IMG/VR virus record: IMGVR_UViG_3300025828_000126
Location: 1 to 29,318 of that record
Length of the DNA stretch: 29,318 nt
Direction: 5' to 3' (one strand)
Source: a virus
In this document: piece by piece, positions 5,664-29,318 of the stretch
How positions within the stretch are numbered: position 1 is the first letter of the stretch
Layout of the letters: the number at the start of each line of letters is the position of its first letter
Notes under the pieces: model-generated
Told to the model about the DNA's origin: nothing
The model's database searches: none
What the model saw: the letters and a program-made list of their open reading frames with translations, nothing else
Position numbers and translations under genes: made by a program

Positions 5664-5709
5664 ACTTTTTCAGCTTTTCTAAATTCTTCTTGTTGATTCC
5701 TTTTGCCAT
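5581..5709 (-). CDS. Possible 42-residue micro-ORF overlapping the tail terminator start
   Basis: The ATG at 5709 overlaps the connector stop as TAATG, as at many real junctions here. The encoded peptide begins MAKGINKKNLEKLKKF and is very basic. The ORF runs about 83 bases into the next gene in another frame before a TGA. It fills the otherwise empty 5664-5708 gap. The junction is genome-like, but the long overlap leaves it uncertain. Confidence 0.35.
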   Translation of the reverse strand: MAKGINKKNLEKLKKFVYSEQHIRNNRNTGQQPSADKAVRTR

Positions 5710-8236: not shown

Positions 8237-8594
8237 CTGTGTACACTTCAGATGGTGCAGGTGTGCCGATGACCTTCACGATTCCTTGTTCTAACAAGGC
8301 CAGACCTGTTGGATCAAGATTTGAAGATGAACTGTTGGAATAGATGTAATAACGCCATTGGCCATCATTGCCCAACTTCACTTCACCTGCTGTTGGTGTT
8401 GGTGTGCCGCTTCCAACTTCTGTGATTTCGAACTTGTTGAATCTGTTCGGAAATGTTGATGTGTCCTGTGCCACACAATATTGCACACCTTCTGTTGTAT
8501 CACTTCTTAATTCAAACAAGTAATAGGTTGCTGTGCCGTATTCGGTCAATGTCACAGCCACTTCATTGGTGCTATTTCGTTCGATGTTTATCAC
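8202..8594 (-). CDS. Virion-associated beta protein of unknown function
   Basis: This 130-residue protein begins MINIERNSTNEVAVTLTEYG. It has alternating polar and hydrophobic beta patterns, including TYYLFELRSD, QWRYYIYSNSSSS and a C-terminal QTYTVYGE. It lies between another structural-looking gene (4-base overlap) and the portal. Similar small beta proteins are common in virion clusters of marine phages. It may be a head decoration or attachment component; no domain name is assigned. Confidence 0.65.
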   Translation of the reverse strand: MINIERNSTNEVAVTLTEYGTATYYLFELRSDTTEGVQYCVAQDTSTFPNRFNKFEITEVGSGTPTPTAGEVKLGNDGQWRYYIYSNSSSSNLDPTGLALLEQGIVKVIGTPAPSEVYTGGNQTYTVYGE

Positions 8595-9043
8595 ACCGAA
8601 AGAACAACATATTCAATGTCCACATCTGCTGTATCAGATTGTGCGCTGATGTTGTCGATGTCAACGAATGCGCTGAATGCACCTGCGGCCGTGTCTGCAT
8701 CCATGCTGCCAGATGATAGCATAAATGTGGCACCTGCATCAACTTTCACGTCAGCAGTTTCTGCTCCACTTTTCTTGAATCTTACACGGATGAAGTTGGT
8801 GTTGTCCAGGTTCGTGATACGAATGTACTTGATTGAACTTCTGACAAACTTGCCTTGGCCATTGTCGCTGTTCAATTCAATCAAATCAATTTCATTGGAA
8901 GAATCGACAGTCATCACACGCCTGTCAGCTTCTGCAATATTTTCAATTGTACGAGTATGCGACCCACCACGATCTATTCCCGCAAGGTTTAGACCTTCTG
9001 AAATGGTGATTGTTGCCGTGCTTGGTGTTACTGTGCTTGCCAT
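8591..9043 (-). CDS. Virion structural protein, beta-rich
   Basis: This 150-residue protein begins MASTVTPSTATITISEGLNL. Strand-rich segments include KYIRITNLDNTNFIRVRF and VKVDAGATFMLSSGSM, the type of beta sandwich seen in small virion decoration or tail proteins of aquatic phages. It is preceded by a strong RNA hairpin and a TTTGCTATTTAA motif, so it may have its own transcript or a processed 5' end. Exact role unknown. Confidence 0.65.
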   Translation of the reverse strand: MASTVTPSTATITISEGLNLAGIDRGGSHTRTIENIAEADRRVMTVDSSNEIDLIELNSDNGQGKFVRSSIKYIRITNLDNTNFIRVRFKKSGAETADVKVDAGATFMLSSGSMDADTAAGAFSAFVDIDNISAQSDTADVDIEYVVLSV

Positions 9044-9060
9044 TGTTGTTGTGCTTTTCT

Positions 9061-9072
9061 TTAAATAGCAAA
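9061..9072 (-). promoter_or_regulatory. Recurrent TTTGCTATTTAA motif, copy 1
   Basis: The minus strand reads TTTGCTATTTAA 17 bases before the ATG at 9043. Close copies precede two other genes, at 11420-11431 (TTTTCTATTTAA) and 19935-19946 (TTTGCTATTTAA), at 14-17 bases. Fixed position and sequence suggest a phage promoter box or a translation-enhancing leader. No test is available from sequence alone. Confidence 0.35.
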
Positions 9073-9096
9073 TGGTTCAGATTGTGCCAAAACGCA

Positions 9097-9126
9097 GAAA
9101 GGTGCAGCAGAAACGCCACACCTTCC
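9097..9126 (-). terminator. Strong intergenic RNA hairpin
   Basis: In the minus-strand transcript GGAAGGTGTGGCG and TGCTGCACCTTTC can pair along 13 positions around a TTTC loop. Four pairs are G-U wobbles, which pair only in the minus-strand RNA. It lies in the 110-base gap after the putative tail tube gene. The following T tract (GCGTTTTGG) is weak, so it may be a partial terminator or an mRNA-processing or stability element. Confidence 0.5.
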
Positions 9127-9153
9127 TAACACAGAGAGAGAAAAGAAAATTTC

Positions 9154-9693
9154 TTAGTTGCTGATTGTTGCAATCATATCGTCAACAGTTCCGCTTGTTG
9201 GTGTTAACTTCAAGGACATTGCAGGTTCCATTCCAGAGAATGTCAACGTGTATCCTTGCAGATCACCAAATGCAGTTCCTGTTGCTGCTGTTCCGGCAGT
9301 TATTTCAAGACCATTTGACCTTCCAACAACAAACGTGTTTGGCGTTTCGTCATTGGTTGTGTACATAATCACAACACGATTCTGCGCCAACAGCTTGATT
9401 TCGTCACGTGTCGCAGTTGCCAATTTTGGAAGGACAACAGTCACTTCTGGTGCCATATAAACAGTGCCATTCTGAATGGATGCCGTGATTGTCTCTGTCA
9501 CCGCTGATGTTTCCTTCAGTTGCTCATACGATTGGAAAACCAAAGATGCAGTTGCAAAAGCTGTGATGTCTCCACCGCTGACTGTTTCACCTAATGATTC
9601 GTAATCAGCCAATGTTGCAATGTACAATTTGGAAATTCCACCTACACTGTCTCTACATGGCAGCGCAAAATTTGATGTTAACGGGCAGCTCAT
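9154..9693 (-). CDS. Virion structural protein, probable tail tube
   Basis: This 179-residue protein begins MSCPLTSNFALPCRDSVGGI. With TASIQNGTVYMAPEVTVVL, ATRDEIKLLAQNRVVIM and a C-terminal GDLQGYTLTFSGMEP, it matches my recollection of an abundant Bacteroidota phage protein usually labelled major tail or structural protein. The GYTLTFSG ending resembles tail-tube proteins. It directly follows the capsid gene, and abundant proteins often cluster there. Structural status is likely; tail tube rather than head decoration is a moderate inference. Confidence 0.6.
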   Translation of the reverse strand: MSCPLTSNFALPCRDSVGGISKLYIATLADYESLGETVSGGDITAFATASLVFQSYEQLKETSAVTETITASIQNGTVYMAPEVTVVLPKLATATRDEIKLLAQNRVVIMYTTNDETPNTFVVGRSNGLEITAGTAATGTAFGDLQGYTLTFSGMEPAMSLKLTPTSGTVDDMIATISN

Positions 9694-9716
9694 TTGCTAA
9701 TTGTTTTTTTAGTGAT

Positions 9717-9740
9717 GGTGATGGCATTTCTGCCACCACC
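9717..9740 (-). ncRNA. GAAA-tetraloop hairpin after the capsid gene
   Basis: In the minus-strand transcript GGTGGTGGCA pairs with TGCCATCACC over ten pairs (one G-U) closed by a GAAA tetraloop. It lies in the 68-base gap after the capsid stop and is followed by an A-rich, not T-rich, stretch. It is therefore unlikely to be an intrinsic terminator. It could stabilise the capsid mRNA 3' end or mark a processing site. Listed as an RNA structure element, not an independent gene. Confidence 0.4.
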
Positions 9741-9761
9741 TTTGAATCAATTCAATGCAGA

Positions 9762-10724
9762 TTAAACTGCTACTTTACCAACCTGATCTGGAAAGGCCAC
9801 CTGTGTTCCCATGATGAACTCACAGGCAACACGGATGGTTCTGTTATCCTTGCTGTACCATACTTCAAGACCTGCATCTGATGTGTCAGTATCAAGATCA
9901 AGACCAAGAACAAGGTTGTTCAATGATGCACCATAAACGCCATTCAATCCGGTCAATCCGTTCACACCGATAACTTCAATGTTGGTTCCTGGATAAACAA
10001 GTCTGAATGGATCGAAGTCAGATGCATAGTTCGCAAGCTGTCCACCTGTTGAAGTCAATCCGCTTCCATCAAGGATTCCTGCTGCAAGTAGTCTGAATTT
10101 GTCAAGGCCAACGAAGATTTTGAAATCTGGCTGTGCTGCTGCTGCTGATGGAGTCAATGCATATACACGCTGAACTGCTTCAACCATTTCCGCAACAGTC
10201 AATGGTGAAGATAGTGTTGAACCGTTGTAAGCTGCCACGTTGCAATCTGTGAACGATGCAGCATTCTGAAGTATACCATCGAACATGTCCAAGTTCGTTC
10301 CAGAAGAACCTGCTCCATCACCTTGCCAGATGATTTTTTCAATCTCGTCTTGGATTTTCTCAACAAGGTAATTGCTGAACACTTCTTCAAATGGCATTGA
10401 ATCTTGAATTGCTCCAGGTGCCAATTGAGTAGAAAGGTAGTAGTTCTCCAATTTCTTTGGGCAGAACTCCATGTTGATTTTCACGTGCTTTGCATCAATT
10501 GTCTGCTGTGTGAATGTCACATCACCATCAGCAGCAAATGAACAAGTTGCACCTGCTTGTGCCATGTTCACATCAACATCCATCAAATTCACAGTTGTTG
10601 GTCCTTTCACACCCAACTGCTTTCTCATTAGTTCAGCAGTTCTTCCACCTGCCAATGCCTTGGTCAGCAATGGGAATTGCTGCTCGTTTACGAATGGGCT
10701 TAATGCCGTTACATCAAATGCCAT
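9762..10724 (-). CDS. Major capsid protein, HK97-fold type
   Basis: This 320-residue protein begins MAFDVTALSPFVNEQQFP. It shows the expected order of capsid segments: an N-terminal arm, a KHVKINMEFCPKKLENYY strand, an EEVFSNYLVEKIQDEIEKIIWQG spine-helix region, PDFKIFVGLDKFRLL, and a C-terminal LEVWYSKDNRTIRVACEF strand. No cleavage site is obvious by eye. Scaffold and protease genes lie immediately upstream, as expected for capsid assembly. A strong hairpin follows the gene. Confidence 0.85.
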   Translation of the reverse strand: MAFDVTALSPFVNEQQFPLLTKALAGGRTAELMRKQLGVKGPTTVNLMDVDVNMAQAGATCSFAADGDVTFTQQTIDAKHVKINMEFCPKKLENYYLSTQLAPGAIQDSMPFEEVFSNYLVEKIQDEIEKIIWQGDGAGSSGTNLDMFDGILQNAASFTDCNVAAYNGSTLSSPLTVAEMVEAVQRVYALTPSAAAAQPDFKIFVGLDKFRLLAAGILDGSGLTSTGGQLANYASDFDPFRLVYPGTNIEVIGVNGLTGLNGVYGASLNNLVLGLDLDTDTSDAGLEVWYSKDNRTIRVACEFIMGTQVAFPDQVGKVAV

Positions 10725-10756
10725 GATTTTTGTTTTTTATGGTTTTAATTTCTTGT

Positions 10757-11404
10757 TTACTTCTTCAATGCTTTTCTCATCTTCTCCACGATGTCAGCAT
10801 CAGATGTTGCTTTCGCGAATGGATTGTTGACCTTCTTGGTTGGTTCAACAGATGGTTTTGCCGCCATCTTTTCCACGATGTCTGTGATCATTCCAATGGC
10901 TTTTTCCATTTCATCGAATCTGGAATTGATGCCTTCAACTACTTCAGCAGATGCAAAATTGTGTGCGGCAACAATATCAGCAGCAATGGCCGCCATCTTA
11001 ACATCAACATCAACATCTTCTTCTTCAGTTGACTCTTCTGATGCCATTTCTTCCTTCTCTTTTTCATCTTCTTCTGCTTCAACTTCTTCTTCTTCAGCTT
11101 CTGGTGCCATCACTTCAACAATGACTGCACCTTCTGTTCTGATGATTGTGCCATCTTCAAGTTCGTGATCACCATCTGGTGCGTCAATTTCATTGGCTGC
11201 TTCATCAATTACTTTGACAGATGCACCAACTTCAACAGCAGGTTCAACTCGTACAATGGTGCCATCAACTAATTTGGCATCCAGGAATGCAGCTTCAACT
11301 GCTGCTTCTTCTGTTGTTTCAACTGTCTCTGTTGTGTCATCTGATCCGAATAACACCTTCTTGATTTCTGGCAACTTATCGCCAACTAATTCTGAAATGT
11401 TCAT
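10757..11404 (-). CDS. Acidic scaffold-like protein
   Basis: This 215-residue protein has two related beta motifs (LVDGTIVRVE near 45-55 and LEDGTIIRTE near 81-91). A very acidic middle of Glu/Asp runs (about 100-135) and a helical C-terminus ending EKMRKALKK follow. Acidic, low-complexity, helical proteins between protease and capsid genes usually act as scaffold and are removed or degraded in maturation. The duplicated DGTI motif is typical of partners of XkdF-like proteases in related phages (recalled). A TTTTCTATTTAA motif precedes the start. Confidence 0.7.
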   Translation of the reverse strand: MNISELVGDKLPEIKKVLFGSDDTTETVETTEEAAVEAAFLDAKLVDGTIVRVEPAVEVGASVKVIDEAANEIDAPDGDHELEDGTIIRTEGAVIVEVMAPEAEEEEVEAEEDEKEKEEMASEESTEEEDVDVDVKMAAIAADIVAAHNFASAEVVEGINSRFDEMEKAIGMITDIVEKMAAKPSVEPTKKVNNPFAKATSDADIVEKMRKALKK

Positions 11405-11419
11405 AGCTGTGCTTTTTTG

Positions 11420-11431
11420 TTAAATAGAAAA
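11420..11431 (-). promoter_or_regulatory. Recurrent TTTTCTATTTAA motif, copy 2
   Basis: The minus strand reads TTTTCTATTTAA 15 bases before the scaffold ATG at 11404. It has one base different from the copies before the genes starting at 9043 and 19920. The shared position is the main argument for function. Confidence 0.35.
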
Positions 11432-11449
11432 AGAATTGATGTGTGCCAC

Positions 11450-12037
11450 TTACTTCTGAATGGCATCAATAACTGCATCAATCACTTCCTGGTCCATTGT
11501 CATTTCCTTGTCTTCTCTGAAGATGCCTTCAACTGAAAAACCTTTCAAAGTATAGCCATCATCTTCCTTGATTTTCTGCCAGACAGCATCATTCTCCACA
11601 CGCATACTTCCGAACCAACTGCCTTGCGGAACATCTTGAAATCCTTCCGGCACACCTTTGACATCATCCACAATCCAAGATTCGAAGATGAACACACCAT
11701 CCACAGGTGTTTCATGCATCTCATTTACAGCCTTCGTCAATCCATTCTTCATGAACTTGTAGACGATTTTGCGAATGGTTTCTGCTGTGAATACAACATA
11801 CCATTCTTTATCGGACCATCTTCTGTAAATTGGAAGCGATGCGATCATGAAAGGACCGGTTATGATACGTTTTTCTTCATCTTTCACTCTGAACTTGTAT
11901 GGTTCCTTCACTTTGCTGAAAGCCATAAAGTCACGTTCAATGGCAGGTTCATCCACTAAGCTGACGAAATCCACGCCACTTTCATCATCATCATCGATGG
12001 TCAAATAGACCAAGGGAATCTTTTTGTCTTTTTCCAT
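11450..12037 (-). CDS. Prohead protease, XkdF-like
   Basis: This 195-residue protein resembles the PBSX XkdF/S78-like phage protease family. Key segments are VDFVSLVDEPAIERDF near the start, VNEMHETPVDGVFIFESWIVDD in the middle with a candidate catalytic His, and PQGSWFGSMRVENDAVW and LKGFSVEGIF in the second half. Such enzymes process scaffold and capsid proteins during head assembly. It lies directly before scaffold and capsid, the canonical order. The serine nucleophile is probably in the GSW or GFSVEG region, but I cannot fix which. Confidence 0.8.
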   Translation of the reverse strand: MEKDKKIPLVYLTIDDDDESGVDFVSLVDEPAIERDFMAFSKVKEPYKFRVKDEEKRIITGPFMIASLPIYRRWSDKEWYVVFTAETIRKIVYKFMKNGLTKAVNEMHETPVDGVFIFESWIVDDVKGVPEGFQDVPQGSWFGSMRVENDAVWQKIKEDDGYTLKGFSVEGIFREDKEMTMDQEVIDAVIDAIQK

Positions 12038-12039
12038 TG

Positions 12040-13650
12040 TTATCCGGTTAATCCAAATGTTGCTTGGTTTTGTATCTGTTGAATATTTTCTTGACTGCCA
12101 GACAGTTGTGATTCCACAACGAATGCCTGCACAGGTGCCAACTGTGCTGCTTCTGCATTAGTTATTTCAGTTGTGCTTGTCGTAACAGGTGCAACAGATG
12201 GTGCTGATGGTGCTGATGCAGATACTGTTCCTGCACTTGGTCCAGGTGCTGTGTTCAATATCTGTGTTGCCTGTACCATTGCTCCAACAACTGCACCAAC
12301 CATAGATGCAATGTACGCCACTTGCAGGAATGGTGCAGCAGGTCCACCTGATGAAGCTGCCTGTGTTGCACCTGCAATTGCTGTTGATATTGCCACAGCC
12401 GTGTTGATTGCTAATTCTGCAACTGCAAATGCTTTGGCTGCTGCAACACCTTCTTCACCTTGCTGCTCCAAGAATCCTGCAATCTGTCCCAATGCACTTG
12501 CAGTTTGTTGTGCTGCCAGGATTTTTGCATTCTTCACTTTTTCCGCTTCAAGTTCAGCCAATGAAATCTGCTTGGCTGCGTATGCTTGCTCCAAACGAAT
12601 CATCTCTTCGTGATTCTCAATCTGTTCCGCAGTCATCTCGGCATTGGTGTACTTCAGATATTCACGCATTGCATCAAGATGTTCGTGATATTCATCTTCT
12701 GCTGCGCTTAATTCTGCGCCTATTCCGGCATACCAAGGATTCTCAATGAATATCATGTATTCACGTGCATTGGTGAGGCCTTCAGACCTTTCTTCTGACA
12801 ATGCCTGTTCTTCTGCTCGCAATGCTGCCGCATTGGTTTTCTGTTCAGAGTAGATGCCATTGATTCTTTCCAGAACATCAGCCTGTTCTGCCTGTGCATC
12901 AATCAAGGCTGCTTGTGCAGGAATGGATTCTCTGTTCATTGCCAATTCTGCTTCACGCAGACTGATACGCAATGCAGAAATCTTCAATTCTCCACGTGTC
13001 TGTGCTTCCAATATTTCAGCAATGGCGTCATTGGCTTTCATTCGTGTTTCAATATCCAATTCGATATTGTCACGAATCTGTCGTTGAATTTCTGCTTGGT
13101 TCTGCATTTCCAACATGAACTTCCTTTGCTGCGCTTCAGCCAATTGCAGTTCATTCCGCATCTTCACAATGCTGTCAGCCTGTGCCAATGCGCCATCTGC
13201 ACCATGCAACAATGCATTTCCAAAGTCTCTGAACTTCTGGATGATCTCATCCATGTTCATGTCCTTGATGCCTTGCAATCCATCAACCAAATCCTGCACA
13301 GCACCTGCAACATTGCCAAAGATAACTTCCAATGTCACCATTGCCTTGCTTAATCCATCGGTAATTCTTTGGTTGCTTCGAAGTAGGTCTGCAAGTTTTT
13401 CAAAAATCAGAAGAACAACAGACAGCTTGCCAATCATCTTGATGGCATTGCCAACTGATCCGCCAAACTTCTTGACACCTTTGGACGCACCTTCCGCACC
13501 TTTTTCAGCAGATTTGAATCCGCCTTCCATTTTCTTCTTCAGGTCATCAGTTGTGGCCTTCAGTTCTTCCATCTGCTGCTTCAGATCATCAATCTCAGCA
13601 GTAGCATCTTTGGTTTTTACGTCAACTTCAACAGCTATCTTTGTGGCCAT
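12040..13650 (-). CDS. Tape measure protein (short)
   Basis: This 536-residue protein begins with a coiled-coil segment (IDDLKQQMEELKATTDDLKKK), then a Gly/Lys linker and a hydrophobic stretch around 72-92. A long helical centre rich in Ala, Glu and Gln and an Ala/Gly-rich hydrophobic region near 395-465 follow. The end is low in complexity (GPSAGTVSASAPSAPSV). This composition is typical of tape measure proteins, which set tail length and line the tube. At roughly 0.15 nm per residue it would suit a tail of about 80 nm (rule of thumb). Its ATG is next to the fibre-like gene stop. A membrane-active segment may aid DNA entry. Confidence 0.8.
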   Translation of the reverse strand: MATKIAVEVDVKTKDATAEIDDLKQQMEELKATTDDLKKKMEGGFKSAEKGAEGASKGVKKFGGSVGNAIKMIGKLSVVLLIFEKLADLLRSNQRITDGLSKAMVTLEVIFGNVAGAVQDLVDGLQGIKDMNMDEIIQKFRDFGNALLHGADGALAQADSIVKMRNELQLAEAQQRKFMLEMQNQAEIQRQIRDNIELDIETRMKANDAIAEILEAQTRGELKISALRISLREAELAMNRESIPAQAALIDAQAEQADVLERINGIYSEQKTNAAALRAEEQALSEERSEGLTNAREYMIFIENPWYAGIGAELSAAEDEYHEHLDAMREYLKYTNAEMTAEQIENHEEMIRLEQAYAAKQISLAELEAEKVKNAKILAAQQTASALGQIAGFLEQQGEEGVAAAKAFAVAELAINTAVAISTAIAGATQAASSGGPAAPFLQVAYIASMVGAVVGAMVQATQILNTAPGPSAGTVSASAPSAPSVAPVTTSTTEITNAEAAQLAPVQAFVVESQLSGSQENIQQIQNQATFGLTG

Positions 13651-14228
13651 TACGCAGGTATTAATCTATAGTGAACGTAAACGGTTATGTCAGAATCACC
13701 TGCTGTTGGATTGCCGGAATCAACTTTGACCAATAGGTCGGCATTTGCAAGTAGTTGCGTAGATGTCGCAAGAGCCGGCGTTGATTTGTCCATACAAATA
13801 ATGTTACTTACAGATGAATTAATACGAGCCTGTGCTTGCACAGATGTTGATGCGCCCGAAGTAATCAGTTGCAAGTCTATGTTCGTTGCATACGGTGTTG
13901 TGTTGAAATCTACCTTTCTACTTGCAGATACAACTTCAATTGCATAGCCAGGAACAGCAGACACAATGGTCAATGGTGTGCTGTTCAATGTCAGCACATC
14001 TGCTGATGCAATGGTCAGTTCAGCACTTCCACCGATACAAAAAACGCCACCATCTCCACGTGACCAAACTACATTGTCAGCTTGGTTGATGAATAGTTCG
14101 CCTTTATAAATGTCAGTTGCTGTCCACGCAGGTGATGGTTGTGTGTGATCATCTGATGGTGCCACAGTTGGAACAGTTCCGGAAACTGTGGACCTTTTAA
14201 TCTTTATTCTTGAATCTTGTGTTGCCAT
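13650..14228 (-). CDS. Fibre-like tail protein, two-part
   Basis: This 192-residue protein begins MATQDSRIKIKRSTVSGTVP. The segment IYKGELFINQADNVVWSRGDGG is typical of phage fibre N-termini that attach to the tail. The C-terminal half, from about residue 90, is a beta domain ending AGDSDITVYVHYRLIPA. Codon choice changes by eye near 13930, with more varied codons in the C-terminal half, similar to the receptor-binding module at 3.9-5.2 kb. The stop overlaps the tape measure start as TAATG. It could be a fibre adaptor or a short fibre. Confidence 0.65.
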   Translation of the reverse strand: MATQDSRIKIKRSTVSGTVPTVAPSDDHTQPSPAWTATDIYKGELFINQADNVVWSRGDGGVFCIGGSAELTIASADVLTLNSTPLTIVSAVPGYAIEVVSASRKVDFNTTPYATNIDLQLITSGASTSVQAQARINSSVSNIICMDKSTPALATSTQLLANADLLVKVDSGNPTAGDSDITVYVHYRLIPA

Positions 14229-14231
14229 TCG

Positions 14232-16961
14232 TTAGTTTATGTTTTGGCCGCCATCTATCGTATAAATAGATGAATCGCCATATTGTATCTGCACTTCATC
14301 TTCCATTCCATCCAAAACGTAGATGGTGCCACCTGCATCTGTTGCTCTGATTTCATCTTCGCCACCTTCAATGATGTAGCCATTCATCTGTTCTTCTCCA
14401 TTGATGATGGTAACATTGGACCTGCTGACCTTGGCACCATCTGTGCCGATGATTCGGACATTGTGCAATCCTGCACCAACTTCGTTTCTGTCACCAATGA
14501 TGGTGATGTTGCTGCTTCCTTCACCAACTTTGTTGTCACTACCTTGGACCAAAAATGTTGTTGTGCTGTCACCGACACGGTTGCGCTTTCCGGACACCTT
14601 GCCGCCATTGAATTGTGGAAACACATTGCCACTTCTCTGGACCTTCTTCACAACAGGTGCATTGACCTTCGCCAATCCATCTGCCACCTTCTTCGGTTGA
14701 CCAACTTGGAATGTGTCCACTTCCAATGGTTCCTTCACAATGACCTTGAACAGCTCCACTTTGGTCAACTGTTCCTTGAATGGATTGTAATCTTTGATCT
14801 CATTGATGCGCCAATAGCTGTTGTCAATTTGAATCTGCTCACGGAAATCAAGATTCATAATGTCCAAAGGTTCCAGATAGAACATTGCTGTCATCAGCTT
14901 ACTGTCCTTATTGGTGATTTCAATCACGTGATTCCGATGGAATACATTGAACAGATTGGCATTGGTGTACAGAAGATTGCCTGTGTATGCATTGCCAGAA
15001 TAGAACAATTGCTTTGGAATGCCAAAGTTGATATCCTGCTGTGGAATGATGCCACCTGTTCCTGGATGTGTCAAATGACCTGCATACGGATAACTTGATT
15101 GTGCCACATCAATGGTGACGAATCCATTTTGTGTTGCTTGCCGATATCTGAAGATCCAATCTGGATTTGATGGAATCAATCCACCAAAGTACAGCAGTCT
15201 TATGTTGTGTTCAGTTTCGGCCACACCATCTTCAAGGTCTTCATTGTATATCTTGCCAATGATTCTGTTGCTTGGATTGTCATTGACCATTGGTGTTGCG
15301 CTGAAGACAACTTCCATTTCATTGGTACCAAGTTGGAAGTCATTGTCAACTTCTGCCTTTGCTCTACCATACACGTGACCAAAGCTGTCATTATATCGCT
15401 TGTTGTATAAGTCATCATCTTCTGCGTAGGTGTACAGGAATTCATTTCCTGTCAGAAGACCCAAAGGCTGCAATGTCACATCCTTGTCACGTGCCATCTT
15501 ATGCGTCCAATCCTTGACCTTTCCGGACGCATAGAACGTGTCACGTGTTTCAATCAATAGATTCCGTTCATCATTCGGATCAATGGTGACGTATAGGTTG
15601 AACATCTGAATGATTGACAGCAGCAAGTCCTTCATTTCAACTTCTGGCACAAAGCTATTCATTGGAATCAACTGACCTTCCACGATGCCAAGGTCACCAG
15701 ATGTCACTTCAATGGTTGATGTGTTGTTCAATGTCAGTTCACATTGGTCGAATAGGAACAACGCCACGTTCGGTTCCATCCACATTTCCATGTACAACCT
15801 GTCACCAATTTCCATAAAGATATTTTCGGAAAATGTGCTAACCAATGTTGTTGCTGTTGCGCCAATGGTTGATGATGCAGGTATATCAATGGTTACGATG
15901 AATGACTGCTCAAGCTGAACAGCACCATTCACACGTTGAACGTACACATTCAAGACGGCATTGAATTGTCCGGTCACAACAGGATTGCTTCCAGATGGTG
16001 CGCTGACGCGCTCAACTGTAAATGATGGCACAGATGTCACGTTGAACCATCCATCAGATGGTGCTTCGTAGTAATCACCTGCGTCATTCCACAGGTCGAA
16101 TGGATCAATATTGCTGTCGAAGTCCAACAGCACATTCTGATTGAATCCAGGATTTGGATAGTTAGGCGCAAATGCTGTTCGCAATGGCTGACCAGGTGAA
16201 ATGGCCGTTGCTGTCCTTGCAGCAACTTCTGATTCACTCAGTTGGAATCCTTCATTGGTCCACGGAATAATAAGTCTTTGAAAGAATGCCGATGACAGGA
16301 ATGTGGATGTGTAACTGAAGTCTGCAAAGCTGAAGATTCGGTCAACGATATCGTGCAGGAATACAGCAGGCCGAAAGTCATTCACACGATAGATGCGCTC
16401 TGTCGTTTGCAGATACGATGGTTCATTCACGCCATAGTCAAGCATTGGATAAACATAGCCATCTGTGTTTGACCAACTGTTGACGATTTCGCTATAATTA
16501 TAATCGTGATCAAGGTCTGAAAAGTCAATCAATGGATTGCCATTGTCATCAAGACCATTCAGTTCTGCGTCTCCCAATTCATTGAAGATGTTGGCCATCT
16601 TGCCGATGAATATGATTTCATAGATCAATTGGTCCTTCTTCGCAGTTATCTGTCGCAACTGCAAGGTGCCATCCATCACTTCAATGCCATCTGTTATGAT
16701 TCGCGCATTCGCTCTCTTATTCGGATTGAAATTTGCTTCAATGTTAGCAGCAGAAGAATTGTAAGCATTGCTGATGTTTACGTCATAGATTTGTCCGAAG
16801 ATGGCATCATTCCGCTGTGTTCCTGGACATTGGATTGTCTTGGAATATTCTGTCTTACGCTCATCCGGATGCCGAATGTCAGCAATCGCATAATTGAACG
16901 AAAAGTCAAATTGAAAAATGTCAATTGGTCGGCCTTCAACCAACACCTGCACATCAGCCAC
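14232..16961 (-). CDS. Large tail-tip/hub-like protein with C-terminal beta-helix
   Basis: At 909 residues this is the largest gene. The N-terminal ~170 residues (MADVQVLVEGRPIDIFQF, EYSKTIQCPGTQRND) match a tail-tip type I associate with Bacteroidota phages. The middle is beta-rich. From about residue 780 short repeats such as NKVGEGSSNITIIGDRNEVG and NVTIING resemble a right-handed beta helix, a fold often used for surface glycan contact. It overlaps the upstream 432-residue tail gene by 8 bases. A baseplate or tail-tip host-contact role is likely. No catalytic site is recognised. Confidence 0.7.
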   Translation of the reverse strand: MADVQVLVEGRPIDIFQFDFSFNYAIADIRHPDERKTEYSKTIQCPGTQRNDAIFGQIYDVNISNAYNSSAANIEANFNPNKRANARIITDGIEVMDGTLQLRQITAKKDQLIYEIIFIGKMANIFNELGDAELNGLDDNGNPLIDFSDLDHDYNYSEIVNSWSNTDGYVYPMLDYGVNEPSYLQTTERIYRVNDFRPAVFLHDIVDRIFSFADFSYTSTFLSSAFFQRLIIPWTNEGFQLSESEVAARTATAISPGQPLRTAFAPNYPNPGFNQNVLLDFDSNIDPFDLWNDAGDYYEAPSDGWFNVTSVPSFTVERVSAPSGSNPVVTGQFNAVLNVYVQRVNGAVQLEQSFIVTIDIPASSTIGATATTLVSTFSENIFMEIGDRLYMEMWMEPNVALFLFDQCELTLNNTSTIEVTSGDLGIVEGQLIPMNSFVPEVEMKDLLLSIIQMFNLYVTIDPNDERNLLIETRDTFYASGKVKDWTHKMARDKDVTLQPLGLLTGNEFLYTYAEDDDLYNKRYNDSFGHVYGRAKAEVDNDFQLGTNEMEVVFSATPMVNDNPSNRIIGKIYNEDLEDGVAETEHNIRLLYFGGLIPSNPDWIFRYRQATQNGFVTIDVAQSSYPYAGHLTHPGTGGIIPQQDINFGIPKQLFYSGNAYTGNLLYTNANLFNVFHRNHVIEITNKDSKLMTAMFYLEPLDIMNLDFREQIQIDNSYWRINEIKDYNPFKEQLTKVELFKVIVKEPLEVDTFQVGQPKKVADGLAKVNAPVVKKVQRSGNVFPQFNGGKVSGKRNRVGDSTTTFLVQGSDNKVGEGSSNITIIGDRNEVGAGLHNVRIIGTDGAKVSRSNVTIINGEEQMNGYIIEGGEDEIRATDAGGTIYVLDGMEDEVQIQYGDSSIYTIDGGQNIN

Positions 16962-18252
16962 GTTGTCTTCTGTTAGTTAGTGAATAGTTCAATTCGAATG
17001 TGTACTGCATCAACTTATCATTCAATGATGTCTTCTTCTGGATGCTGTTGCCTGTGATGTTCATGGCAATCAATTCATTGTTCACTTCTCTGTACACAAC
17101 AGGTGATGTGAACAGGTCATTCATCCATGTGCTTTCAGCTTCGGTTAAATAATCTGTGTTCACGGTCAACTTCTCGGTCATCTGAACATCATAGTCTGTC
17201 TGGCCACGTGATGCTTTCGTGTAATCATACACGAATCCTGTGAATGTGTGATGCTGCTGATGATACGATTCACGCTTCACATCTGTCTTGTTCATTGATT
17301 TCAGATTGAAGTTAAATGAATCTATGCCACCAAGTCTGTTCAACCAATGCAGACGCACAGGTTCATACTTCGAACATTGTTGGTCCAGGTTGAATGTCAC
17401 AGCTTCTGATTCCTGAACATTGGTGCTGTTCAGCAGCATAATGGTGTAACTTTTGGCACCATTCAGAACAGTTGATGGTGTGCTGCCTGTCATCAATGCA
17501 GGATCTATGTTTGCAATGTCCTGTGGACCAATGGCAATCCGCCAATATTGTGCATCGTAATTGTTTGAAATTAGATATGGTGATGTCACGAATCCAGAAG
17601 ACAGCAATGTTCCTGTGCCATCCACATCATCATACGCGTTGATCAGATACTTGTTTGCGCTCAACTTGTCATTCACAATGTAGTACAGCCATGCAGATTG
17701 TACAGAATCAATGTTCCGGATGCTTGGCGCATCTGTCAGAAATCGCTTGGTTGTAGATGGTCCGTTGATGATGAAATCATTGTAGTCAAAGTCAACCCAA
17801 TCAACAAGGTTCCTGACACCATTCCAAACTGACTTCTGCTTGAAGAATGTCAAGTCAACTTGCTCATATCTGTCCGTGTCCGGATTGATGTCTTCTTCCT
17901 TTATGAAGATGAAATACTCAAAATGACTATTGCCATTCTGAAAGAATGCTTGATGGTTAGCAGCAGGAATGGACACATCATGTGTCAACTGTGATTGTGT
18001 GATTCTGGACACATCGAACCATGCATGATTCTCAAATGGCGCACCTTGGTAAATTCCAACAGATGGATAAACAACCAATGTTGCAACTGGCAAGTCACCT
18101 GTCACATACGGATATTTCAGAACATTGATTCTGAACCGAAGTGTTGGTGTGTAGTTTGTGCTGCTGATGACATACCTGTTATCATTGTATGCCAATGAAT
18201 AGTCAGTTGGTTCTTGGCTCTCGCCATTTGCGTAGACAATTAGTGTTGCCAT
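16954..18252 (-). CDS. Tail-tip component
   Basis: This 432-residue beta-rich protein begins MATLIVYANGESQEPTDYSL. The segments PVRLHWLNRLGGIDSFNF and FNLKSMNKTDVKRESY and the C-terminal MQYTFELNYSLTNRR are features I associate with a conserved Bacteroidota phage tail protein next to the large tip protein. It has no signal or membrane segment. Its ATG is adjacent to the stop of the 181-residue neighbour. A distal tail or baseplate ring role is inferred from order. Confidence 0.65.
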   Translation of the reverse strand: MATLIVYANGESQEPTDYSLAYNDNRYVISSTNYTPTLRFRINVLKYPYVTGDLPVATLVVYPSVGIYQGAPFENHAWFDVSRITQSQLTHDVSIPAANHQAFFQNGNSHFEYFIFIKEEDINPDTDRYEQVDLTFFKQKSVWNGVRNLVDWVDFDYNDFIINGPSTTKRFLTDAPSIRNIDSVQSAWLYYIVNDKLSANKYLINAYDDVDGTGTLLSSGFVTSPYLISNNYDAQYWRIAIGPQDIANIDPALMTGSTPSTVLNGAKSYTIMLLNSTNVQESEAVTFNLDQQCSKYEPVRLHWLNRLGGIDSFNFNLKSMNKTDVKRESYHQQHHTFTGFVYDYTKASRGQTDYDVQMTEKLTVNTDYLTEAESTWMNDLFTSPVVYREVNNELIAMNITGNSIQKKTSLNDKLMQYTFELNYSLTNRRQRG

Positions 18253-18797
18253 TATCCTTGTGATTCTATAAATTCCTTAAGCTGTTCCATTGTCAATGCC
18301 ACATCATCGGCAATGGCTTCTTCAATTTCAGATGGAACTGCTCTGTTGATTGGTTCCGTATACGGATCAATCCAATTCCTTGGTCGCATTCCGTAGTTAG
18401 CCAGATTCCTTGAAATGACAAATGCCAATCCGCGGTGCTTGGATTCCGACCATTGTGCTGTGTCTGAATCACCTTTGAATCCACCTATCTTGTCACGTAC
18501 AGTTGGAATCTTCAGCCAATCATAGATGTCCTTGTAATTGTCAGCGAATGTAAAATTGTTTGGTCGCTTACCTTGTGGCCTTGTTCCTTCGTCCAGGTCC
18601 AGACCATAGTCTTCCATCGTAATCTGCATCTGATAGATGCTTCCGAACACTTTGACCTTTGGCTGCTTTGGAAGACTGACAGATGTACCAAGTCTACCTG
18701 TGGCAACAAGATTGTTGTCCTTGATAGATTTTCCCAAGGCATTGGTGTATGCCTTCCGGAAACCATTCAATGTATCAACCAATTTGTCAAATGCCAT
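18252..18797 (-). CDS. HK97 gp10-like or tail-completion protein
   Basis: This 181-residue protein begins MAFDKLVDTLNGFRKAYTNA. The segments LVATGRLGTSV, YGLDLDEGTRPQGKR and the C-terminal WIDPYTEPINRAVPSEIEEAI are reminiscent of head-tail joining or tail-completion proteins of the HK97 gp10 type. Those begin with a Leu-rich helix and contain a GxLxxS-like segment. It lies right after the tail chaperone, whose -1 frame ends inside its first codons (stop at 18787). Function is inferred. Confidence 0.55.
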   Translation of the reverse strand: MAFDKLVDTLNGFRKAYTNALGKSIKDNNLVATGRLGTSVSLPKQPKVKVFGSIYQMQITMEDYGLDLDEGTRPQGKRPNNFTFADNYKDIYDWLKIPTVRDKIGGFKGDSDTAQWSESKHRGLAFVISRNLANYGMRPRNWIDPYTEPINRAVPSEIEEAIADDVALTMEQLKEFIESQG

Positions 18798-19068
18798 TTT
18801 TCAGTCTTGCTTGCTGTTGAATGTTTTGTTGACGATCATGCGCCTGTTTTTCGCGATAGAAAGTAATGACGTTAAATAGTTCTCTGATCCGAAGATTGAA
18901 GAAATGGTCCCATTTGCTATGGTCATTGTTTGCCAGATTGTTGACCAGGTCGAGCCATCCAAATCTGGTTTCATACGTTTCAACTGCTTTTCCGCTTCCT
19001 TCAGATTCTTCTTGGCCATCAGACCCAAATAAACCTGCATATTCTGAACGTAGTTCTTGTAACTTTCG
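18787..19068 (-). CDS. -1 frame extension of the tail assembly chaperone (frameshift part)
   Basis: After the T9 run, the -1 frame stays open for 93 codons from 19068 to a TGA at 18789-18787. It begins RKLQELRSEYAGLFGSDGQ and includes GWLDLVNNLANNDHSKWDHF and NLRIRELFNVITFYREKQ, which look like the C-terminal domain of phage tail chaperones (G/GT type). Joined at the slippery site, it gives a product of about 263 residues beside the 258-residue zero-frame form. It overlaps the next gene's start by 11 bases. A missing T in the run is the main alternative. Confidence 0.65.
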   Translation of the reverse strand, partial: RKLQELRSEYAGLFGSDGQEESEGSGKAVETYETRFGWLDLVNNLANNDHSKWDHFFNLRIRELFNVITFYREKQAHDRQQNIQQQARLKNGI

Positions 19069-19577
19069 AAAAAAAAAGCAGTCAACGGATAAACGACATT
19101 CATCTTGGCATCCTTCATATCAGCAGCAACTTCGCTGTGCTGCTCTGAATCATAGGTGCCATCCTTCCATCCAAACCAAGTTTTCTTGCTTGGAATACAG
19201 AACAAGGCCAGAATGTCGGCCATATTGTCCATCACTTTATCTTGGTCCTTCATCAGATGCATCAATGTGATATATTGGCCACCTGTCAGCTTCTCCACAT
19301 CACTTTCAATTCTGTATTTCTTACCATTGGCCATCATGTACTTCTGCAACTTTCCTTCAACTGCTGAAGAAAGGAATGCCAATGATTTCATCACATTCGT
19401 GTAGGATTTCAGAGACAGTTCTTTGACTGCTGCTTCTGACCATCCAGACATGATGCTGATGATGGCCACGTTCTTTTCATATTCGTGCAGGTCATCGTGC
19501 TTCATCACATTCTGCAATGCGGCAAACTGCTCCACAGTTACTTCTGACCAATCGCTTGGAAGTTCAATTTCGTTCAT
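18801..19577 (-). CDS. Tail assembly chaperone, zero-frame form
   Basis: This 258-residue protein begins MNEIELPSDWSEVTVEQFAAL, then KYRIESDVEKLTGGQYITLMHLM and NVVYPLTAFFFESYKNY. This resembles Bacteroidota phage tail assembly chaperones, which keep the tape measure soluble while the tube is built. The FFF at 168-170 is encoded by a nine-T run with an in-phase T TTT TTT site. A -1 shift there makes a second product with a different C-terminus (18787-19068). Both frames are open downstream. The ATG overlaps the neighbour at 19564 by 14 bases. Confidence 0.75.
   Translation of the reverse strand: MNEIELPSDWSEVTVEQFAALQNVMKHDDLHEYEKNVAIISIMSGWSEAAVKELSLKSYTNVMKSLAFLSSAVEGKLQKYMMANGKKYRIESDVEKLTGGQYITLMHLMKDQDKVMDNMADILALFCIPSKKTWFGWKDGTYDSEQHSEVAADMKDAKMNVVYPLTAFFFESYKNYVQNMQVYLGLMAKKNLKEAEKQLKRMKPDLDGSTWSTIWQTMTIANGTISSIFGSENYLTSLLSIAKNRRMIVNKTFNSKQD
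19071..19077 (-). promoter_or_regulatory. Slippery site T TTT TTT for -1 ribosomal frameshift
   Basis: The minus strand carries nine T residues (19077-19069) read as GCT TTT TTT TTC in frame. The heptamer T TTT TTT fits the X XXY YYZ rule for simultaneous tRNA slippage, and the -1 frame after it is open for 93 codons. I see no obvious stimulatory hairpin directly downstream by eye. A homopolymer-length error would produce the same picture. Confidence 0.6.
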
Positions 19578-19920
19578 TCTCTTTTCTGATCTGTTCTATT
19601 TTTCTGATTGCCCAATTTACACCTTCATCACCGCCCCATGCAAGCCACATCAAACGGCCACATCCTTCGCCAAGTTTGCGCTTGCTGTTCCTTTTGTGTC
19701 TGATAAATGCCGCCATTCGTTCAATTGTCTCCACGCTTATTGGTTCACGCTTTGCCAATTGCCTTGCTCTGGCTTTGCCAACAGGTGTGCCACAGCTTTT
19801 CCATCCATACTTTTCCGCATACCTTAATGCTTTCTTCGCATTCTCGGACGCAGCCTGTGGATAATCATTGTATGCTTCCTGCATCTTCCATACACGTCCA
19901 AGTCTTTCAAGGATGTTCAT
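19564..19920 (-). CDS. Conserved phage domain of the prohead-protease-associated type
   Basis: This 118-residue protein has ENAKKALRYAEKYGWKSCGTPVG, KARARQLAKREPISVETIERMAAF and a C-terminal GRLMWLAWGGDEGVNWAIRKI. I recall these features from a small domain often found fused to prohead proteases or portal-like proteins in other phages, where the AWGGD signature is conserved. Here it stands alone after terminase and before the tail chaperone. The role is unknown; a head assembly or DNA-contact function is possible. A TTTGCTATTTAA motif precedes it. Confidence 0.65.
   Translation of the reverse strand: MNILERLGRVWKMQEAYNDYPQAASENAKKALRYAEKYGWKSCGTPVGKARARQLAKREPISVETIERMAAFIRHKRNSKRKLGEGCGRLMWLAWGGDEGVNWAIRKIEQIRKENERN
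19856..19864. promoter_or_regulatory. Consensus DnaA box, site 2
   Basis: The plus strand has TGTGGATAA, the exact complement of TTATCCACA, inside the 118-residue gene. A second exact copy lies at 25783-25791. Alone it may be chance. Confidence 0.2.
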
Positions 19921-19934
19921 CTGTTGTCTTTCAA

Positions 19935-19946
19935 TTAAATAGCAAA
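19935..19946 (-). promoter_or_regulatory. Recurrent TTTGCTATTTAA motif, copy 3
   Basis: The minus strand reads TTTGCTATTTAA 14 bases before the ATG at 19920, in the gap after the gene ending at 19951. It is identical to copy 1 at 9061-9072. Confidence 0.35.
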
Positions 19947-19950
19947 AAGG

Positions 19951-20157
19951 TCAATTTGTATCTATAGCGAAACGCAGCAGCAGCAATCTGTCGTAATATG
20001 GCATAAATACCCTGTTGCCTGGATTGTTCTGGAGAATCTTGATGTGGCTGTCAATCATCTTTGGCACATTGGTCACAACTTCACACTTGCTGATTCGCAC
20101 CTGTTCTGGAAAGGTCATAGCCTTCAGTTCCTTTTCAAGTCTGTCCAATGGAATCAT
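19951..20157 (-). CDS. Conserved small phage protein
   Basis: This 68-residue protein begins MIPLDRLEKELKAMTFPEQV and contains DSHIKILQNNPGNRVFMPYYDRL, a pattern (SHI, NPGN, PY..RL) that I associate with small proteins of Bacteroidota phages and islands. It has no metal site or membrane span. It follows a 35-residue zinc-knuckle-like gene after terminase. Function unknown. Confidence 0.65.
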   Translation of the reverse strand: MIPLDRLEKELKAMTFPEQVRISKCEVVTNVPKMIDSHIKILQNNPGNRVFMPYYDRLLLLRFAIDTN

Positions 20158-20165
20158 TCGTCAGT

Positions 20166-20273
20166 TTATTGGTTGACAGTTTTGTTGGTTTTGTCAGTCT
20201 TCATGCAGACCTGACACACCTTGCCACCATTAATGTAGTCTTTTCGCCATACGTGATTGCATTGCTTTTTCAT
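20166..20273 (-). CDS. 35-residue zinc-binding micro-protein
   Basis: The frame starts at ATG 20273 and overlaps the large terminase stop as ATGA, as at many real junctions here. It ends at TAA 20168-20166. The peptide begins MKKQCNHVWRKDYINGGKV and contains CNH plus CQVC, a possible four-ligand zinc site (C5, H7, C20, C23). The tail is Lys, Thr and Asn rich. It is short enough to be missed by length cut-offs, but the junction and the metal-ligand spacing support it. Confidence 0.6.
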   Translation of the reverse strand: MKKQCNHVWRKDYINGGKVCQVCMKTDKTNKTVNQ

Positions 20274-21433
20274 CTGACTGCATAGGTGCCTGTTGACATT
20301 GATTTGCTCATAATGGAATAACGTGCTGCATCAATCGCGTGATTTGAATGGTCCACAGGAATGTTCAATGATGCACCTGTCTTGTCTGTCTGCCAGACAT
20401 AGCCGCGCAGTTCCTTGATCAGATTGGTTGATGATGATGTCACCATCAATGGCACCTGCTGCATCTGGTTGATGCCGTACATTATGCTGTCCTTTCCTTT
20501 GACTGCTCCACGGATACGATGGCCGTATCTTCGCAGTTCGTCAATGCTTTTCGGTTCAGAAGAATCTGCAATGATTTCAATGCCCTTGAATCCATCCAGG
20601 ACATTGCTGATGTCCTTGTTGCTCATTCCTGTTGCATAATGTATTTCATGCATCCACAGCTTGCCATCTGATTGCCTTACTTCAACAATGGCAGTTGCAT
20701 CATTGGTATATCCCCAATCAAGGCCAATGCATCTCCATCGGTAGTTGTCTGGCAGTTGGTCACATTGATTCCAATTGTCGAACACAACACCTTGCAATGC
20801 TCCGATTCTTCCAAGGCCATAGACATTCCACCAATTTTGCCAATAGACTGAATGCTTGGCTTTTTCTTCTGCCTTCTCAATATCCTTTCTGATTGTGTCC
20901 GGCAATGCTTCGTTGTCCTTGAATGTCAATATCAAATGTTCAGAATCATCTTCTTGCAGCACTTCGGTGTGCGCCCAAAATTCCATCGTTGGATTGAAGT
21001 CAATGAATATCTCGTCTGATGTTCTGATGGCCAATTGATAGTAAGATTCAAATGGAATGTTGTTTGCTTCGTTCACGTAAAGAATGTTCCTTCTGGCACC
21101 ACGTAGCCTTGCTTCCTGGTCTGCGCTGAAGAATTCGATGTAACTGCCATTGGCAAATGTGTATGTAAGTAGTGACCTGTTCCATCTGCTGTCATTGTAT
21201 CTGCCTGTGATTTGCATCACCTTCAGAAAGTCTTTCATTGCTCCACGCCTAAGATGTGGCACAGATTCGGACACGACAGAAATTTCAAGACCATCAGTTC
21301 TGGCTGCTCTGTCAATTAGTACTGGAAGAATGCCGAATGTCTTTCCGGCTGATGTGCCACCTTGGATGACCTTTTTGCGTTTGGTCAGCTTGCGGATCTT
21401 GCGGATGGCTGTTGTGTAGACGAAATCATTCAT
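20270..21433 (-). CDS. terL: Large terminase subunit
   Basis: This 387-residue motor and nuclease packages DNA into the prohead. The ATPase has Walker A GGTSAGKT at 25-32 and Walker B ILYVNE at 117-122 with catalytic E122, followed by a DFNPT coupling motif near 145. The RNase H-like nuclease has D239 in LDWGYTNDAT, D290 in IIADSSEP and D368 in HAIDAARY. Length is short but normal for this group. The ATG overlaps the small subunit stop as ATGA. Confidence 0.96.
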   Translation of the reverse strand: MNDFVYTTAIRKIRKLTKRKKVIQGGTSAGKTFGILPVLIDRAARTDGLEISVVSESVPHLRRGAMKDFLKVMQITGRYNDSRWNRSLLTYTFANGSYIEFFSADQEARLRGARRNILYVNEANNIPFESYYQLAIRTSDEIFIDFNPTMEFWAHTEVLQEDDSEHLILTFKDNEALPDTIRKDIEKAEEKAKHSVYWQNWWNVYGLGRIGALQGVVFDNWNQCDQLPDNYRWRCIGLDWGYTNDATAIVEVRQSDGKLWMHEIHYATGMSNKDISNVLDGFKGIEIIADSSEPKSIDELRRYGHRIRGAVKGKDSIMYGINQMQQVPLMVTSSSTNLIKELRGYVWQTDKTGASLNIPVDHSNHAIDAARYSIMSKSMSTGTYAVR

Positions 21434-21837
21434 TCATCATCACCGAATAACGGCTGCTCACGATGTGTCACTTCGTGCTTTTCAGTTAGGTTGTTCAGAC
21501 GTTGTGTGATGCTCGTGTTGTAGATGCCGGTCATGCCACCTTCAATCTGGTCCTGTCGGATGCTCTTACGTATACGCGAACAGATAGAAACATATTGGCT
21601 GTATCTTTCATCACGATTGGCAAAGTAATGGTCTAAATTTTCATTCAATCCTTGGTCAGCTACGAAGTTCTCGAATCCTTCCATCGTCAATGGTTTCTGA
21701 AGTTCACGATGCACAGTAATTGCTTTCGGACCAATGAAATCCTTCACAGTTATTGGATGGTCCTTGGTGTGTGCGGCATAGTCCAGGAACAATTGCCACA
21801 TCTTGTCGGGTGTTTCAATGTACTTCTTCTTTGCCAT
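21430..21837 (-). CDS. terS: Small terminase subunit
   Basis: This 135-residue protein lies directly upstream of the large subunit with a 4-base overlap. The first half (TPDKMWQLFLDYAAHTKDHP, LTMEGFENFVADQG) looks like a helix-turn-helix DNA-recognition region. The C-terminal half is helical (SICSRIRKSIRQDQIEGGMTG, TQRLNNLTEKHE) and would make the oligomer and contact the motor. It chooses the DNA start or pac/cos site. The call combines position with recalled family features. Confidence 0.85.
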   Translation of the reverse strand: MAKKKYIETPDKMWQLFLDYAAHTKDHPITVKDFIGPKAITVHRELQKPLTMEGFENFVADQGLNENLDHYFANRDERYSQYVSICSRIRKSIRQDQIEGGMTGIYNTSITQRLNNLTEKHEVTHREQPLFGDDE

Positions 21838-28463: not shown

Positions 28464-28688
28464 TTACTTATTGATTACATCTTCGTGAAATGCATCATCA
28501 TCGCCACATGATTCGCAAACGCCAATCAATGCAGCTTGTTCGTGATGCTCTGAATAACCAACAACAGCCTGTGTCTGGCCACATTCACATCTGCATTGTG
28601 AATTGTTGGTGATCAATTGATAGCTGTGTTCCTTCAAAATGAACATAGCCTGTTCTTCTGTGCTTACGCAGTTTACTATTCTTGCCAT
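28464..28688 (-). CDS. Small zinc-ribbon-like protein, complete copy
   Basis: This 74-residue protein begins MARIVNCVSTEEQAMFILKE. It has CRCECG in the middle and CESCGDDD near the end, a possible zinc-binding pair. It ends FHEDVINK. It is the first gene after the promoter region at 28689-28812, and a partial copy begins at 67. It may be an early host-interaction or transcription factor. Confidence 0.7.
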   Translation of the reverse strand: MARIVNCVSTEEQAMFILKEHSYQLITNNSQCRCECGQTQAVVGYSEHHEQAALIGVCESCGDDDAFHEDVINK

Positions 28689-28713
28689 TTCTCTCTGTTT
28701 TAAGATTATGGTG

Positions 28714-28746
28714 TGAAACTACAAAAACACGTTGATAACTTCCAAA
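28714..28746 (-). promoter_or_regulatory. Candidate Bacteroidota-type promoter (right copy)
   Basis: TTTGG (28746-28742) is followed after about 20 bases by TAGTTTCA (28721-28714), in register with the left copy's TATATTCG. It would drive the zinc-ribbon gene and the recombination operon. The neighbouring bases are diverged between the copies, but the spacing is kept. Confidence 0.4.
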
Positions 28747-28791
28747 CAAATGCACAGAAAATTTCACACGTTGATACTAACGTGCTGATAA
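28727..28791. promoter_or_regulatory. Three repeated operator-like motifs (right copy)
   Basis: ACACGTTGATAACT lies at 28727-28740, ACACGTTGATACTA at 28766-28779 and ACGTGCTGATAA at 28780-28791. The first lies between the candidate promoter boxes. All three are kept in both genome copies while bases at 28696-28726 diverge. Confidence 0.45.
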
Positions 28792-28812
28792 TCAACAGAA
28801 TAATTTTAACGA

Positions 28813-29043
28813 CTAATTAACAGACAGCCACGTGTCATCGTCATCTGATTGGCTGCTGATGATGTGCAGATACATTTCTTCTGTATTGACCAACGTGTTG
28901 TGATAGGCATCCATTTCATCTTGAATGGCCTTGTTCCTTTCGCTGATTCGCCATAGAATGTATGCTGATATAATTGCCCAGAAGACAAGGACCAACAGCA
29001 GGACCATCGCAATGATCAGCAGGTTGATGATAGTCTGCATCAC
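28813..29043 (-). CDS. Small single-span membrane protein (right copy)
   Basis: It encodes the same 76 residues as the left copy at 192-422. Here the position equivalent to the left ATG is GTG at 29043, followed by an ATG at 29040, so it starts at GTG or at the second codon. Base differences from the left copy are synonymous. Function is unknown. Confidence 0.8.
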   Translation of the reverse strand: MMQTIINLLIIAMVLLLVLVFWAIISAYILWRISERNKAIQDEMDAYHNTLVNTEEMYLHIISSQSDDDDTWLSVN

Positions 29044-29318
29044 CTTACTTTGCCTTTAATGATTCGCAGATTGTCAACTTCAAAGTCACCGTTGTCATCA
29101 ACACGAATGATGGCGAACCCGTGATTCCATTTGTTTACGGGCATGTAACCTGGATGCAATTCACATAGGCATCCTGTTGACCATGTTGTCACAACCTTGC
29201 CATCCAGATTGCTTTCTGAATGTTCTGATGTTTGATGATTATGCCCACAGATAACTGATGCTTTCGCTCTCATGTAATAGCCACGTGCAGGATTCACAGG
29301 TGAAAAAACGGACCTTCC
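29040..29318 (-). CDS. Metallophosphoesterase C-terminal part (cut by window edge)
   Basis: The frame is open from the window edge to the stop at 29040 and encodes the C-terminal 92 residues, including the GHNH motif. It corresponds to about residues 253-344 of the complete gene at 419-1453, with one amino-acid change (RVDDNG for RVDGNG) and many synonymous changes. The start lies outside the window. Confidence 0.9.
   Translation of the reverse strand, partial: GRSVFSPVNPARGYYMRAKASVICGHNHQTSEHSESNLDGKVVTTWSTGCLCELHPGYMPVNKWNHGFAIIRVDDNGDFEVDNLRIIKGKVR

Follow-up and report, generated by a model that had tools for sequence, protein, structure and literature searches.

A probably frameshifted, chaperone-like phage gene in which the unshifted product carries an overprinted C-terminal extension under purifying selection

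Results

The slip site and the two reading frames

The gene is located on the minus strand of the window (the whole stretch of viral DNA analyzed here, 29,318 nucleotides), and the positions of its features are given in Table 1. The minus-strand codons around the slip site are TTG ACT GCT TTT TTT TTC GAA. No homopolymer in the window other than the T run in this segment reaches nine nucleotides. The zero frame is read through the run and continues to its own stop codon, near the start of the next gene. The −1 frame opens 45 nt ahead of the run, and after the FFF encoded there it has 93 codons before its TGA. The preliminary description of this DNA had placed a nine-T run with an in-phase T_TTT_TTT heptamer here, together with a 258-residue zero-frame product, a 93-codon open −1 frame and a shifted product of about 263 residues. 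The minus-strand codons and the recomputed frames agree with each of these.

Table 1. Positions of the slip site, the two overlapping reading frames and the adjacent gene in the window
Feature	Positions	Strand	Remarks
Nine-T run	19069..19077	−	Contains in-phase T_TTT_TTT (19077-19071) and T_TTT_TTC; invariant in 23/23 sequences
Zero-frame ORF, G with extended C-terminus	18801..19577	−	258 aa; TGA stop at 18803-18801
Shared N-terminal part, G domain (residues 1-169)	19071..19577	−	Has homologs in the wider family
−1 frame T domain (F-RKLQELR...KNGI)	18787..19071	−	TGA stop at 18789-18787; predicted shifted product (GT) 263 aa
Dual-coding overlap	18804..19070	−	89 zero-frame codons (residues 170-258) above the −1 T domain; both under purifying selection
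Next gene	18252..18797	−	181 aa, no function assigned; ATG 3 nt past the zero-frame stop; −1 stop within its start

There are no ATG, GTG or TTG codons in the −1 reading frame of the window, and the relatives have only scattered TTGs in this frame. Independent initiation of T was ruled out, as the window has no start codon in this frame and none is conserved in the relatives. The peptides LQELR and FGWLDLVNNLANNDHSK are specific to GT, and NLKEAEK is specific to the zero-frame tail. For the single sequence of the window, the chance that the zero frame stays open is about 5% given the −1 protein, and the chance that the −1 frame stays open is about 0.1% given the zero-frame protein. This test is weak for the zero frame, and the conclusions presented here do not rest on it.

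Conservation in the close clade

Two scans of IMG/VR identified 22 close relatives of the window, with 80-100% identity, which provide 17 distinct sequences besides that of the window. In each of the 22, the run consists of exactly nine Ts, the zero frame has 258 codons, and the −1 frame is open for 96-97 codons. The segment from the T run through the 14 nt beyond it forms a near-invariant block in the clade. The distance from the zero-frame stop to the next start is 3 nt in all 23 sequences, with GTG as the start codon in one of them (L014). The preliminary description depended on the length of the run and on the conservation of the −1 frame. Runs of 8 or 10 Ts are absent from the 22 clade relatives, all of which have T9, and the −1 frame is kept both in the clade and in distant relatives.

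The T domain in the wider family

In more distant relatives, with 23-28% identity in the G domain, the zero frame ends soon after a T_TTT_TTT heptamer (T_TTT_TTC in one case) located in the same place. Their −1 frames read FFFRW..FI..QYEGLFGK...FKW...L.KELN. A wider scan with the T domains of distant relatives gave 80 loci (L063-L142), two of which (L088 and L106) are cut or off-register and are given no weight. At less than 80% identity the family forms 31 groups, and the slip site is nearly always T_TTT_TTT. This heptamer is found in 77 of the 80 loci. The T run has nine Ts in 71 loci and 8-10 Ts in 77.

The family (L024-L037 and L063-L142) shares with the window the homologous G and T domains, the position of T_TTT_TTT, and the size of the predicted GT product (about 262-275 residues). 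It differs from the window in the zero frame, which stops 4-37 codons (median about 20) after the slip in the wider family, compared to 89 codons in the clade of the window. As a result, G has about 182-212 residues in these relatives.

A profile of the T domain was built from the −1 frames of 28 distant relatives and run against 4362 sequences, including 4000 shuffles. The top-scoring sequence is the −1 frame of the window (E = 6e-5), in an alignment that begins with the FFF at the T run and extends to the end. In comparison, the zero-frame tail of the window has an E value of 0.28, among the shuffled controls. The G-domain profile, also from 28 distant relatives, matches residues 1-169 of the window (E of about 3e-24). 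Moreover, three relatives (L035, L039 and L040) have a G and a T-like domain in a single continuous ORF, which aligns with the shifted product of the window. Based on the choice of the −1 frame by the T profile and on the alignment of the single-ORF relatives with the fusion, the −1 frame of the window is the old T domain, with the change of frame located at the T run. This supports the proposal in the preliminary description that a C-terminal domain is encoded in the −1 frame. As judged from the family, the zero frame of the clade appears to have lost an ancestral early stop, with the 89 codons overprinted on the T domain.

The single-ORF genes are located at L035:3259-3981, L039:3995-4729 and L040:3514-4248, and they contain no shift. 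These phages apparently do without a separate G, or produce G otherwise.

Ribosomal or polymerase slippage

The heptamer T_TTT_TTN is a good site for tandem slippage by the ribosome. The same run could also be a site of transcriptional slippage, in which one U is inserted (or two are skipped) by RNA polymerase at T9, and some of the mRNAs then encode GT directly. Runs of nine As or Ts are reported to trigger such slippage in bacteria, for example in Shigella mxiE (PMC5009743; PMC4256274). The prevalence of nine Ts in the family, which occur in two different phases, is consistent with this mechanism. The presence of a T before the heptamer is negatively associated with that of a T after it (Fisher p = 0.004, for 31 groups that are related by descent). 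In addition, no RNA stimulator was found downstream of the slip site, where the predicted RNA structure is no better than that of shuffles (z = −0.39) and there are no compensatory changes or covariation.

However, in three relatives a ribosomal heptamer is retained although the run is shorter. The run has seven Ts in L110, six in L038 (T_TTT_TTC) and five in L082 (A_AAT_TTT), and the ribosome is therefore favored. The phase pattern could stem instead from constraint on the protein ([VIL]FFS as compared to [NTSGA]FFL), besides the shared descent of the groups, and phage P2 shifts at a T6G heptamer without a detectable RNA structure (PMC3091744). Slippage by the polymerase is considered an unlikely explanation for the change of frame.

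Two further features of the runs were observed. At L082:2498-2510 the T run is replaced in place by A_AAT_TTT, which is another ribosomal slip heptamer. The occurrence of T9 in two phases (with the T before or after the heptamer) across L063-L142 hints at selection on the length of the run.

Identity of the gene and its neighborhood

The gene most likely belongs to the G/GT-type −1 frameshift genes and encodes a tail assembly chaperone, as suggested by its layout. An in-phase heptamer ends the G domain, and it is followed by a conserved −1 T domain that has no start of its own. The match to Phage_TAC_7 (PF10109) has an E value of 0.022 and a score of 15.2 bits, compared to a cut-off of 25; 13 of the 23 members match this family, with a best E value of 0.013. 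A match to phrog_166, annotated as 'tail protein', is also below threshold (E = 0.02). The preliminary description had called the gene a tail chaperone. The G/GT architecture agrees with this call, and the name itself leans on that architecture and on the two below-threshold matches.

The terminase gene is followed by two small genes and then by the chaperone-like gene, and a tape-measure-like gene of 536 residues is located four genes downstream. The chaperone-like gene is not in a clear position between the major tail protein and the tape measure, two genes that are assigned only tentatively in this genome. The terminase of this uncultivated tailed phage is closest to those of Flavobacterium phages. 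A search of the cultured-phage collection gave no matches for either product, for the GT of a distant relative, or for a single-ORF relative. No relatives were found in genome contigs, and a search of the PDB by sequence profile gave no match. The program hhalign found no useful match to gpE of phage P2, which says little because gpE was entered as a single sequence.

The weak family matches, the non-classical synteny and the lack of a cultured relative would also be expected if the gene encoded some other phage protein that uses −1 frameshifting. This is improbable, as the G/GT layout, the T_TTT_TTN site, the stop of T at the next start and the constitutive fusions all fit the G/GT type. Moreover, the best of the weak Pfam and PHROG tail matches are to P2 gpE-like proteins and to a tail protein.

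Several other features of this genome were observed. The two ends of the window (1-697 and 28622-29318) match over about 697 bases with 92.8% identity, which suggests that the genome is circular, with a length of about 28.6 kb, and that the overlapping ends come from two strain variants; the contig of a relative has 28,665 bases. On the minus strand at 5232-21837, the terminase, chaperone-like, large tail-like and tape-measure-like genes precede those of the protease, capsid and portal, which is an unusual order. The portal ORF (6278-8236, minus strand) has 652 residues, with a long C-terminal extension and a weak winged-helix match at about residues 474-539.

Purifying selection on both frames of the overlap

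The minimum numbers of changes at positions 1, 2 and 3 of the zero-frame codons are 38, 23 and 156 upstream of the T run, and 18, 41 and 39 in the overlap. The counts in the overlap indicate that the third positions of both frames vary, while the shared first/second-position base is protected.

Omega values were obtained with a Poisson model on reconstructed substitutions, using parsimony counts on one tree of the 18 distinct sequences. For the zero frame, only changes that create no stops are counted. In the overlap, omega is 0.34 (0.24-0.48) for the zero frame and 0.22 (0.16-0.31) for the −1 frame. The unused +1 frame has an omega of 0.79 (0.49-1.26), which is not significantly different from 1. 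In the shared N-terminal part upstream, used as a control, omega is 0.14 for the zero frame and 1.34 for the −1 frame.

The same analysis was applied to simulated sequences. With the −1 frame alone coding, omega of the zero frame is about 1.03, with a minimum of 0.64 in 150 runs. When such sequences are evolved along the tree, stops appear in the zero frame of a mean of 15.7 of the 18 tips (minimum 9), compared to none observed. With both frames coding, the observed zero-frame omega is typical.

The possibility that only the −1 T domain matters was also considered. In this case the zero frame would be kept open so that unshifted ribosomes re-initiate downstream, and the identity of its residues would be irrelevant. 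The 3-nt distance between the zero-frame stop and the next start, kept in 23 of 23 sequences, is consistent with such an explanation, and so is the −1 stop in the wider family, which usually overlaps or abuts the next start. However, in simulations with a coding −1 frame and a zero frame that is merely kept open, the mean omega of the zero frame is 1.05 (range 0.67-1.77), and none of 300 runs gives a value as low as 0.34. Stop avoidance as the sole cause of the open zero frame is rejected by these simulations, and this explanation for the overlap is considered improbable.

Both frames of the overlap are under purifying selection. The overlap is therefore dual coding, and G has an overprinted C-terminal extension. 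The selection is not uniform along the extension. Omega of the zero frame is 0.25-0.55 in windows over codons 171-235, 0.77 (0.48-1.23) over codons 236-248, and 0.52 over codons 249-257. Due to this rise over codons 236-257, selection on the zero frame is considered to be strongest for the first two thirds of the tail. All 18 distinct sequences encode a basic tail, with a net charge of +4 to +11, and the G part has a mean charge of −4.8. An analysis of the hydrophobic moment of the tail gave no convincing result. As the selection on the zero frame acts at the level of the amino acids, the 89-residue extension probably has a function in the unshifted product. The preliminary description had proposed two C-termini of equal size. 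Both frames are indeed open and conserved, and the selection on the zero-frame tail comes from the present analysis.

A single ORF broken by a miscounted T, or a decayed gene, can be dismissed even though homopolymer runs are generally prone to sequencing error, because 22 contigs of diverse metagenomic origin share the identical T9, which is also typical of about 80 distant loci, the point of the shift coincides with the slip heptamer across the family, and both frames are conserved and under purifying selection.

Discussion

A model for the expression of the gene

The preferred reading is a G/GT-type, chaperone-like gene with a −1 slip that gives GT and an overprinted, selected extension of G, and its probability is estimated at about 0.75. 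The anatomy of the locus and its conservation, the homology of the −1 frame, the need for a change of frame to reach it, and the selection on both frames are the observations on which this model is built.

For translation, most ribosomes would read GCT TTT TTT TTC GAA in frame and produce the 258-residue G. A fraction of them would slip back by one base, with two Phe-tRNAs on T_TTT_TTT, and produce the 263-residue GT that ends in the T domain. A chaperone function is suggested by analogy to phage lambda, where the tape measure is the binding partner of G and the tail tube protein that of the T domain in GT, and where the ratio of the two products is important (PMC5009743). Infectivity is absent in TP901-1 when the fusion is fixed (PMC4493119). 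By the analogy to lambda, the role of G would be to coat the tape measure protein and that of the T domain to recruit the tail tube protein, and a set ratio of both products would be needed.

The basic 89-residue extension would overprint almost the entire T domain and end 3 nt ahead of the next gene, such that ribosomes in both frames may reach the start codon of that gene. The rate test implies that G has gained a selected domain with the extension. A second role of the extension, in bringing unshifted ribosomes to the next gene, is a guess from the spacing. A more specific form of the model has about even odds. Here, the gene would produce two full-length chaperones of equal size from a single start, each with a functional, selected C-terminal domain, the zero-frame domain having arisen de novo as an overprint on the T domain, and their ratio would possibly be set by both polymerase and ribosome slippage at T9.

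If the model is correct, the frameshift chooses between two selected C-termini of equal size, rather than merely lengthening the protein. One of these C-termini would be a recently overprinted domain, in a compact natural case. The state with the early stop persists in the distant relatives, and the origin of the extra domain is therefore open to comparative study. The wide T9 family also makes the question of ribosome or polymerase in tail chaperones directly testable. Since the ordinary ORF looks complete, gene callers would miss the conserved T domain.

Comparison with known frameshifted genes

Shigella mxiE and Citrobacter tssM (PMC4256274) resemble this gene in the expression of two products driven by a homopolymer. 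Slippage by the polymerase is proven for both of them (PMC4256274), whereas the gene here has a conserved ribosomal heptamer and is a candidate for either mechanism.

In phage lambda (PMC5009743), a −1 frameshift yields gpG and gpGT from one start, as proposed here. Its slip site is G_GGA_AAG, the zero frame ends 5 codons later (compared to 89 here), and gpGT is much longer than gpG. The contrast with lambda that was drawn in the preliminary description is borne out by the sizes of 263 and 258 residues here. No sequence homology between gpG/gpGT and the products of the window tested positive.

The gpE and gpE+E' products of phage P2 (PMC3091744, PMC3931495) share with this gene a T_TTT_TTN site (T_TTT_TTG in P2) and the lack of a detected RNA structure. 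Like T, the E' extension has no start signal of its own, and its stop overlaps the next gene. The family that includes gpE, PF10109, is the best weak match for the gene in the window. In P2, however, only 6 zero-frame codons follow the slip, the products have 91 and 142 residues, and there is no clear homology to gpE.

The closest precedent for the long zero frame is in phage SPP1. Of its two tail chaperones, gp17.5 has 173 residues and gp17.5* has 297, with only the first 112 residues shared (PMC6316719). As here, there is a predicted −1 shift (at UUUUUUC), a common N-terminus, and a long zero frame past the slip (61 codons). The shifted product of SPP1 is far longer than the unshifted one, in contrast to the 263 and 258 residues here, and the 89-codon overlap in the window covers nearly the whole T domain. 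Selection on both frames was tested in the clade of the window. The arrangement had been called unusual in the preliminary description. This holds for the equal sizes of the two products, while a long zero-frame overlap has a precedent in SPP1 (PMC6316719). In the open-licence literature, equal-sized products with selection on both frames across nearly the whole T domain were not found described. The gene is thus of a known kind, G/GT frameshifting, and what is new is the selected 89-codon extension of the zero frame, which gives two products of equal size.
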